Assembly (NCBI GenBank): GCA_016870915.1
Contig: VFZY01000050.1
Coordinates: 1-32,722 of the forward strand
Source: Acidobacteriota bacterium
Lineage (GTDB): Bacteria; Acidobacteriota; Terriglobia; Bryobacterales; Bryobacteraceae
Direction: 5' to 3'
DNA: 32,722 bases
Numbering within the stretch: position 1 is the stretch's first letter; each line of letters starts with the position of its first letter. Position numbers and translations under genes: made by a program. The notes under the pieces were generated by a model, which made no database searches, was not told the origin of the DNA, and saw only the letters and a list, made by a program, of their open reading frames with translations. Positions 2 through 32,722 of this stretch are shown here, piece by piece.

Positions 2-169
2 GAGCAGGTGTGGAACTACGTGAAGAACCACGGAATCGGGCGGATGTTGCTGCGCCAAGCGGACGACCTCAAGTGCGCCGTCCTGGCGCGCCTACGATCC
101 CTGCAACGCCTGCCCTGGACTATCAAAATGTTCTTCCTGACCAAGGACACCGTGTACGCCGCAGGTTGA
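2..169 (+). CDS. IS630-family transposase, C-terminal end (5' part outside window)
   Basis: Reading frame 2 is open from the first full codon to a TGA at 167-169 and encodes 55 residues beginning EQVWNYVKNHGIGR. This matches the end of the DDE catalytic domain of IS630/Tc1-type transposases, where the last catalytic glutamate lies in an NPxE-QVWN-xVKN context. The first visible residue may be that glutamate, but the residues before it are outside the window. The protein would act in trans on the ends of its own element and insert at TA dinucleotides; this is family knowledge, not visible here. The C-terminus looks complete and undamaged. Only the right part of the element is present, so neither intactness nor the left inverted repeat can be judged. 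The downstream AsmA-like gene converges on it. Confidence 0.72.
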   Translation, partial: EQVWNYVKNHGIGRMLLRQADDLKCAVLARLRSLQRLPWTIKMFFLTKDTVYAAG

Positions 170-31097: not shown

Positions 31098-31106
31098 TGT
31101 TATGCT
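31098..31106 (+). promoter_or_regulatory. Extended -10 promoter of the AAA ATPase gene
   Basis: TGTTATGCT at 31098-31106 matches an extended -10 (TGnTATGCT) with no recognisable -35. It ends 12 bases before the ATG at 31119, so the transcript would start only about five to seven bases upstream. The region lacks a Shine-Dalgarno, which suggests near-leaderless translation. Confidence 0.45.
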
Positions 31107-31118
31107 CCGATTGGGTTC

Positions 31119-32195
31119 ATGATTTCCACTGTCCTGATCGAAGGCTATCGTGGTCTCAGACGTTTCCACCTGGACGGTTTGGGCCGCGTCAACCTTCTGG
31201 TCGGCCGAAACAACGATGGCAAGACTTCAGTTCTTGAAGCGCTCTATCTGCTCGAAAGGCAGGGCTCTCCCGCGGCGCTGGGCCGGATTCTGGCGGCCCG
31301 CGGGGAATCACTACTGGCAGCGGTCGAGGACTCATTACCTCGCCGCCGCTCCTCCCTTCTCGATATCCGGCACGTGTTCTTCGGACACGATCCCGCGCCG
31401 GGTTCGCGAATCAAGATTAGCGTCGATCCTAAGAGATTTGTAGAGTTTTCCATCGCGTTGCGTGACGCTCAGAGCCGCCTGTTCCCGCCGCCGGAACCGG
31501 AACTGACTGCCAGACTCGAGCTTAGAATTGATGGAGACCCGCCGCCACCCGTGAGCGTGGCTGCCCTGACCGATTCATTCGGATGGCTTCCGGAATGGGT
31601 CGAGCTCTCCTCGAAACGCTGGAACCCGGCGGATCGACCGTCGAGCCAGTTCATTACCCATGAGTCGCTCAATGGAACCCAGCTCCTTGAAATGTGGGAT
31701 CGTGTCGCGTTGACCCCGGCCGAGGATCTCGTACTCAGCCTGCTGCGGATCATCGAGCCAGGAGTGGAACGGGTCGCGATCCTCTCCCAGCCGCGCTCGG
31801 GGGCCAAGGGCAGTTTCATCGCTAAGCTGAAGGACGTCAACGTTCCGGTACCAATTGGAACCATGGGTGAGGGAATCTCACGTCTACTTGTTCTCGCCAT
31901 CACTTTGGCACAATGCCGCGACGGAGTTCTCCTGGTGGACGAAATCGACACTGGTCTGCACTATTCAGTCATGACTTCCATGTGGCGCCTCATCTATGAG
32001 GCCGCAATCCAGTTGAATGTACAGGTCTTTGCCACGACTCACAGCCTCGATTGCGTTGAGAGCCTTAAGGACTTGGAAGAGCGTCACGGGCACCCGCTTA
32101 CAATCCAAAGGATTGATCGCGGAACGGGGCAAGCCGCGCGGCTCAGTTACGCTGGAATGGTGGCGGCGGCCCACCACAGCATCGAAGTCCGATGA
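31119..32195 (+). CDS. OLD-like AAA-type ATPase (AAA_15/AAA_21, SMC/ABC-like)
   Basis: The protein has 358 residues from ATG 31119 (MISTVLIEGYRGLRRFHLDG). Walker A is GRNNDGKTS at 29-37, the ABC-like signature is GTMGEGISRLLVLA at 248-261, Walker B is LLVDEIDTGLHYS at 271-283 (Asp274, Glu275), and the switch His308 lies in FATTHSLD. The ends form one ATPase lobe and the middle (about 60-240) is a variable insert, as in the ATPase half of OLD-family proteins and AriA-like proteins. There is no DNA-cleavage domain in this chain. The following gene overlaps by four bases (ATGA) and supplies a TOPRIM domain. This gene pair resembles split OLD or PARIS-type modules. Codon use looks less GC3-biased than in its neighbours, a possible sign of transfer (not computed). 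Confidence 0.88.
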   Translation: MISTVLIEGYRGLRRFHLDGLGRVNLLVGRNNDGKTSVLEALYLLERQGSPAALGRILAARGESLLAAVEDSLPRRRSSLLDIRHVFFGHDPAPGSRIKISVDPKRFVEFSIALRDAQSRLFPPPEPELTARLELRIDGDPPPPVSVAALTDSFGWLPEWVELSSKRWNPADRPSSQFITHESLNGTQLLEMWDRVALTPAEDLVLSLLRIIEPGVERVAILSQPRSGAKGSFIAKLKDVNVPVPIGTMGEGISRLLVLAITLAQCRDGVLLVDEIDTGLHYSVMTSMWRLIYEAAIQLNVQVFATTHSLDCVESLKDLEERHGHPLTIQRIDRGTGQAARLSYAGMVAAAHHSIEVR

Positions 32196-32722
32196 GCCGC
32201 CGAAGGAGTTTTCCTAAGACGCTGGTGGTTGAGGGCAAGACCGATGTGTACGCAGTAGCCAGCCTAGTCAAGTACTTCGTCGACTGGCCGGACAGCGAAC
32301 GCCCCGTCGAAATTACCGCGCTGAATGGAGCCGACAGGCTCGACGCCGGACTCGTCGAAGCCGTAGCCTTTGCTGCAACCAGGATTGGATTCATCTTGGA
32401 TGCCGATGTAGATGCCTCGAGCCGTTATTCCAGCATCCGGCACCAAATTGGCAACTACTGTCCCGGGTTGCCCGCGAACATGCCGTCAGGCGGCGCGATC
32501 GCGGACGGACCGGACGGCAGGAAATGGGGTATCTGGATCATGCCCGACAACCGGAATCCCGGCGGCGTTGAAACGTTTCTCAGCCCACATTTCCATTTTG
32601 AGCCGCGCGTGCGAATCTCCTGGATGCTCGTCCGCATCAATATCGATAGGGGTTTGAAGGCAGCGAAGACCCCTGCGGAGGACAGCACCCAATGGGTGAC
32701 AAACAAAACCAGCCCTTTCAGC
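32192..32722 (+). CDS. TOPRIM-domain nuclease-like protein (DUF3226/DUF4435-like), C-terminus outside window
   Basis: An open frame starts at ATG 32192, overlapping the ATPase stop, and runs without a stop to the window end (177 residues seen). LVVEGKTDVYAV (Glu14) and GFILDADVDASSRY (Asp70, Asp72) form the Glu...DxD TOPRIM metal site. SGGAIADGPDGRKWGIWIMP and MPDNRNPGGVETFL (about 99-130) match the pattern I recall for DUF3226-type stand-alone TOPRIM proteins; DUF4435 (AriB-like) is the alternative. Residues after about 131 do not resemble the tail I would expect, so the family call there is weaker. TOPRIM domains cut or join nucleic acid using magnesium. With the ATPase it likely forms a regulated nuclease complex, by analogy with OLD, Gabija and PARIS. 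Confidence 0.72.
   Translation, partial: MSRRRSFPKTLVVEGKTDVYAVASLVKYFVDWPDSERPVEITALNGADRLDAGLVEAVAFAATRIGFILDADVDASSRYSSIRHQIGNYCPGLPANMPSGGAIADGPDGRKWGIWIMPDNRNPGGVETFLSPHFHFEPRVRISWMLVRINIDRGLKAAKTPAEDSTQWVTNKTSPFS

Follow-up and report, generated by a model that had tools for sequence, protein, structure and literature searches.

A transposon-interrupted ATPase–DUF3226 gene pair of the PDC-M38 type, a candidate phage defence module, in an Acidobacteriota genome

The right end of an Acidobacteriota contig carries an ABC/OLD-type ATPase gene followed by a DUF3226 gene that is interrupted by a transposon. We analysed the whole stretch of 32,722 nucleotides (hereafter the window), which is the entire contig C50, one of the 367 that make up the 6.6-Mb assembly. 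Judged by the models that its proteins match, the locus is a PDC-M38-type module, already catalogued as a candidate and unvalidated. The best explanation of such modules, and by analogy with studied systems a likely one, is an ATPase-gated TOPRIM nuclease acting in abortive phage defence.

Results

Two overlapping genes, the second split by a transposon

The ATPase gene (31119..32195, + strand) is an intact, PDC-M38A-like frame of 358 residues, with its ATG at 31119 and its stop at 32193-32195, and is identified by ORF, Pfam, PADLOC and structural model. It carries motifs that we take to be Walker A (GRNNDGKTS), the GEG signature, LLVDEID and ATTHS, and Pfam returns AAA_15 (1e-23) and AAA_21 (6e-19), in agreement with an earlier sequence-only reading of this DNA as encoding an SMC/ABC-like ATPase with a complete nucleotide site. 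The same reading had the two genes overlapping by four bases, and ATGA at 32192-32195 is indeed shared by both; they lie in different frames, so that these are two genes and not a fusion. The predicted structure of the ATPase (54-row alignment, mean pLDDT 88.0, last three residues below 50) resembles the heads of SMC, Rad50 and PtuA (Z 18.4-15.8).

The 5' part of the PDC-M38B-like second gene (32192..32583, + strand) matches DUF3226 at 1.4e-22 over profile positions 2-128 of 208, and no other Pfam family at E ≤ 1, DUF4435 and RloB included, which bears out the suggestion that the partner is close to DUF3226. It encodes Glu14 and Asp70-x-Asp72, presumably the Glu...DxD site of a TOPRIM domain that had been read there, as well as Glu127, and it is interrupted after 32583. 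The frame remains open up to the contig end, and the second gene had been taken to run past the window edge. This stood in so far as the rest of the gene lies elsewhere, on contig C253 (L032, about 8449-8186, minus strand); it did not in so far as 32584-32722 are the left end of a transposon and 32722 is the end of the contig, so that residues about 132-177 of the second window ORF are transposon sequence.

On C253 the other end of the transposon is followed by CTCAG and then by the right half of DUF3226, a profile match in frame with the window half. DUF3226 is matched at three places in the genome: by the left half in the window (2-128), by the right half, on C253 (128-207), and in full on contig C76. 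When the halves are joined, the frame is 220 residues long and matches DUF3226 at 163.5 bits (7.5e-48, profile 2-207 of 208), against 80.6 and 66.1 bits for the halves alone. The full gene that was to be sought by extending the sequence rightward is thereby recovered; the possible third gene is not, there being none between the DUF3226 end and a convergent permease on C253. CTCAG at 32579..32583 (+ strand) recurs beyond the other transposon end and is a probable target-site duplication, weak evidence when taken alone: CTCAG-like flanks also occur at other copies of the transposon, and for this reason the join is carried mainly by the frame and the profile.

Glu14, Asp70, Asp72 and Glu127 all lie before the insertion, which cuts off the helical, likewise conserved part at the C-terminal end. 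In the assembly, from which alone this is read, no uninterrupted second gene exists at the window locus and the transposon stands after 32583. Because the insertion parts the nuclease from its conserved C-terminal half, the window copy of the pair is very probably dead in its own genome.

The transposon end in the window (32584..32722, + strand; 139 bases, cut by the contig end) matches 39 other places in the same genome at 96-99%, among 40 scored of 177 candidates. An exact repeat core is common to 19 of the 20 regions taken, the window's own included, and the twentieth has a single change. Exact copies of the left-end pattern number 63 forward and 61 reverse, 124 in the 6.6-Mb assembly, and a reversed-pattern control has 0 occurrences in this genome. 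The start of the transposase, taken from contig C84, matches PF13701 (DDE_Tnp_1_4) at 1.8e-24. The two transposon ends are imperfect inverted copies of each other. Among the copies in the genome, the ends that we looked at are contig ends. The transposon has thus expanded greatly, with little variation between copies, and breaks up the assembly.

A divergent pair with open frames remains in the genome whose window copy is interrupted. It lies on C76 (L033 3516-5249) and consists of an ATPase of 350 residues and a DUF3226 protein of 221 residues, separated by 15 nt and respectively 24% and 19% identical to the window proteins. Its ATPase matches the AbiLi model best (1.2e-42) and PDC-M38A at 8.5e-31; its TOPRIM protein has a weak match to PDC-M38B (4.7e-6).

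Matches to catalogued defence models

The window ATPase matches PADLOC's PDC-M38A at 1.8e-73, and PDC-M38B is matched at 3.6e-19 by the window part of the TOPRIM protein and at 3.8e-45 by the joined protein. Leaving PADLOC's rule file aside, the pair is adjacent, on one strand and with the ATPase first, as in relatives. Both proteins, their adjacency, strand and order are hence those of PDC-M38 in PADLOC-DB 2.0.0, from which the window copy differs in being interrupted by the transposon; the PDC-M38 models also take in longer or divergent types, e.g. an ATPase model of 715 positions. The sequence-only reading had presented the combination as a candidate undescribed system, not known to it from experiments. 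As a defence candidate the combination is not new, since PDC-M38A/B were modelled in PADLOC-DB 2.0.0 (2023); experiments on it we found none in the papers searched. The open-licence literature that we searched yielded no mention of DUF3226 or PDC-M38; a 2020 classification of ABC ATPases (PMC7544218), which lay outside this search, may describe the pair. According to PMC12988326, which cites them to a 2024 preprint (10.1101/2024.01.29.577857), PDCs derive from guilt-by-embedding, and most members of its core set still await validation. PMC11811056 refers to PDC systems as unpublished candidates.

Distribution and gene order

The ATPase–DUF3226 pair is a conserved two-gene operon with a strict gene order and a patchy distribution. 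Of 61 genomes, 14 have DUF3226. Within the family these are 6 of 37 (the window's own included), in the rest of the order 8 of 20 and in the rest of the class 0 of 4. That the pair might be a housekeeping locus conserved in all relatives, an outcome that the sequence-only reading had named as speaking against it, was rejected on this patchiness, and two of the copies lie in Hma loci. We took the neighbourhoods of 20 of the 23 DUF3226 matches in relatives and added C76; the ATPase is directly upstream of DUF3226 at 18 of these 21 loci, the exceptions being L059, where the contig begins, L066, where the ATPase frame is broken, and L071, where DUF3226 is broken.

A scan of genome contigs gave at least 543 confirmed DUF3226 stretches, the best 80 of which are titled Cyanobacteria, Planctomycetes, Acidobacteria, Proteobacteria, Bacteroidales and others. 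These best 80 and 5 viral contigs make up a set of 85 related loci. In this set the upstream ORF has a Walker A motif at 82 loci and no motif at 2, and is missing at 1, near a contig edge; it ends within 20 nt of DUF3226 at 79 of the 85. Filters for a Walker A pattern, a gap of at most 20 nt, a TOPRIM protein above 180 residues and an ATPase above 300 residues were passed by 75 of the loci, which together with the two pairs of the window's own genome gave 77 pairs. The distances between the ATPases and those between the TOPRIM proteins are correlated (r 0.907, n = 77; 0 of 1000 permutations as high), species history being uncontrolled in this comparison.

The distribution is also partly mobile. 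DUF3226 was found in 9 of 72,556 plasmid records, 6 of them covering at least 80% of the query; a mobilizable Citrobacter plasmid of 6,449 bases carries the pair, and a Plesiomonas plasmid has it beside phage tail genes. On an Acinetobacter plasmid (L159 2014-3858) the ATPase upstream of DUF3226 is annotated as two shorter genes, and this copy may be broken too. Among the 5 viral contigs with DUF3226, L156 (2880-8633) has a BsuBI/PstI restriction-modification protein adjoining the pair along with what we ourselves read as contractile-tail genes, and L152 (1252-8612) has a Zot-family gene with it. With the window ATPase as query no relative turned up in viral contigs, and with L053, a DUF3226 relative, none in the phage collection; the Citrobacter ATPase found two phage records of a chromosome segregation protein over 21% of the query. 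No E. coli genome was among the Megablast matches of the Citrobacter pair. Among 14 control genomes, only Methanocaldococcus jannaschii has DUF3226.

Conserved residues and predicted folds

Across the 77 pairs the ATPase motifs are near-invariant, and the TOPRIM protein keeps Glu14, Asp70, Pro118 and Gly124 in all 77 and Glu127 in 76. Position 72 is Asp in 65 pairs and Asn in 12; the second Asp of DxD is therefore not invariant. The ATPase ends in Glu-x-Arg in 77 of 77 (72 EVR, 4 EIR, 1 ETR). In 68 of 75 genes the Glu of this tail is encoded by GAG, where 28.1 (sd 3.9) would be expected from the same genes, a comparison among related genes that gives no clean probability, and GAGGT occurs at the 3' end of the ATPase gene in 65 of the 75 related loci; the tail of the window ATPase, GAAGTCCGA, is without it. 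The codon usage suggests that the conserved tail is probably also the ribosome-binding site of the TOPRIM gene. We had considered E-V-R as a docking tail, a reading that is weakened because the excess of GAG and the presence of GAGGT fit ribosome binding for the next gene; this explains at least part of the pattern and does not explain the Arg.

The DUF3226 family has a TOPRIM-like fold as predicted for the relative L072 (60-row alignment, mean pLDDT 94.4), which, with Glu14 and Asp70, places the second protein within the TOPRIM superfamily and not outside it, as could have been the case. Foldseek on this model returned retron Eco2, OLD C-terminal domains (probability up to 0.97) and AriB, with nothing at E ≤ 0.001. 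The best VIA-align match was PH0156 (2p62), a hypothetical protein from an archaeon, with Z 12.8 and an rmsd of 3.5 over 192. The same comparison gave Z 10.6-9.4 for OLD C-terminal domains, 8.4 for T. scotoductus OLD, 8.0 for Eco2, 7.6 for GajA and 7.4 for AriB; since unrelated folds start at Z 7.3, AriB and GajA are tied with these. Among PDB sequences no significant relative of DUF3226 was found: PH0156 was not among the matches at E ≤ 10, and AriB came up at 0.88 in the profile search, below significance.

Genomic neighbourhoods

Two relatives of the same order have a divergent pair embedded between HmaC and HmaB of an Hma locus (L067 3200-15402 and L068 573-12782). The flanking genes match HmaC at 1.7e-93 and 1.9e-93 and HmaB at 4.3e-69 and 2e-68, respectively; the helicase matches HmaA at 2.6e-61 and 3.3e-57, the BrxH, PbeA, PLD_Helicase and DrmD models fitting it better. 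The match of the L067 TOPRIM protein to PDC-M38B is weak (1.3e-7).

The wider surroundings of the pairs are less telling. We scanned 110 of 129 near neighbours and 75 of 75 far genes. Among the 110 nearest genes, the 25 families listed, out of 60 with PADLOC matches, comprise PDC-S03 (10), mad3 (4), mad2 (3) and others with a single match; these are counts per model and not of distinct proteins. Among the 75 far genes, 5 models have one match each. Uma2 is the commonest Pfam family near the pairs of L072-L139, with 12 of 110 genes (25 of 129 families listed). The Uma2 family is abundant in cyanobacteria, and its place as commonest neighbour may reflect only this abundance. The PDC-S03 matches near the pairs are very likely Uma2 proteins, so that the enrichment of defence genes among the neighbours is weak. 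No third gene recurs near the pairs, the largest neighbour cluster holding 9 of 110. Recurrence in defence islands, for which a survey had been suggested, is seen in the two copies inside Hma loci and at most weakly in the nearest 110 genes, most of which are ordinary. The neighbours examined in the window and on C253 are ordinary too (Peptidase_S9, a MacB-like permease, an acyl-CoA dehydrogenase).

Discussion

In the mechanism that we propose, the ABC/OLD-type ATPase would be sensor and brake, and the DUF3226 protein a metal-dependent TOPRIM nuclease. Phage infection would change the state of the ATPase, the nuclease would be released or activated, and once freed it would cut nucleic acid and abort the infection. 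PARIS, OLD and Gabija, taken as analogues, make complex formation, gating, nuclease activity and phage defence all probable. PMC12409363 names OLD, Gabija, retrons, AbiL, MADS and PARIS as ATPase–TOPRIM systems and describes AriA as keeping AriB inactive until a phage trigger. In the surroundings of BREX, OLD-ABC ATPases are reported together with TOPRIM and other nucleases by PMC12839542, which refers to earlier work describing such operons. The candidate substrate could be DNA, to which we lean slightly because the predicted fold is nearest to OLD C-terminal domains; tRNA or another RNA, considered because the split layout is as in PARIS, has a little less than an even chance.

The pair shares part of its make-up with several known or candidate systems. 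The class 1 and class 2 (GajA) OLD proteins also combine an ABC ATPase with a TOPRIM domain, to which the DUF3226 model is similar at the Z values given above; in them the two are fused, whereas the window has two genes. In Gabija the GajB helicase stands beside GajA, whereas the window pair has no helicase and is flanked by Peptidase_S9 and the MacB-like permease. The window ATPase matches the AbiLi model of AbiL over 1-345 (1e-43), PDC-M38A being the better match, and no AbiLii is found among the hits of its partner, in a library that may hold no AbiLii model. The Hma-embedded candidate HEC-01 is matched by the ATPase (2.5e-10) and the TOPRIM protein (0.015), far more weakly than PDC-M38, and the window pair lies outside any Hma locus.

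PARIS, proposed as class 4 OLD with separate genes (PMC10568477), has the same layout, an OLD-type ATPase gene and then a TOPRIM gene (PMC12409363). If the pair were PARIS or a direct variant of it, with the DUF3226 protein in the role of AriB and tRNA as target, one would understand why AriA models match the window ATPase (2.1e-23), why the TOPRIM protein of the Citrobacter plasmid matches AriB at 0.0023, and why AriB appears among the profile and fold matches. Yet the AriA match is far weaker than that to PDC-M38A, no AriB model is matched by the window left half at E ≤ 1 or by the joined protein at E ≤ 0.01, and Pfam finds DUF3226 alone and no DUF4435. We rejected PARIS by name on these model tests, and that the pair is PARIS or a direct variant of it is highly improbable. 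A housekeeping or repair function is unlikely. It would recall Cran1, a class 5 OLD protein with a role in the cell cycle (PMC12796447), and would suit an ATPase that resembles SMC/Rad50 heads and neighbours that are often ordinary genes; it fits poorly with a pair that is patchy even within its family and order, broken in L066 and L071, carried on plasmids and in phage-like contigs, and embedded in Hma loci.

This embedding also speaks against a toxin–antitoxin-like module for the maintenance of plasmids or prophages, in which the TOPRIM protein would be the toxin and the ATPase its brake. Two closely coupled genes on a mobilizable 6.4-kb plasmid, with no recurrent third gene, could be such a module, and the ATPase of PARIS likewise keeps its nuclease inactive (PMC12409363). 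The few plasmid records, set against the at least 543 confirmed stretches in genome contigs, make this reading very unlikely. The ATPase-gated defence nuclease is the reading that we retain as most likely.

There is an even chance that the ATPase–DUF3226 pairs, widespread in Cyanobacteria and Planctomycetes, form a separate split-OLD class with its own TOPRIM lineage, trigger and substrate, whose marks would be a WxMPDNxxxGMLE motif and the conserved C-terminal helical half (K, WLAWQ, PG). The window copy is of less interest than the family: it shows how a transposon present in very many copies has interrupted a defence candidate, while a second pair with open frames persists in the genome. 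The family is simple, with one ATPase and one small TOPRIM protein, and broad, and it is therefore compact enough to test whether OLD-type ATPases share one way of gating TOPRIM nucleases beyond PARIS and Gabija.
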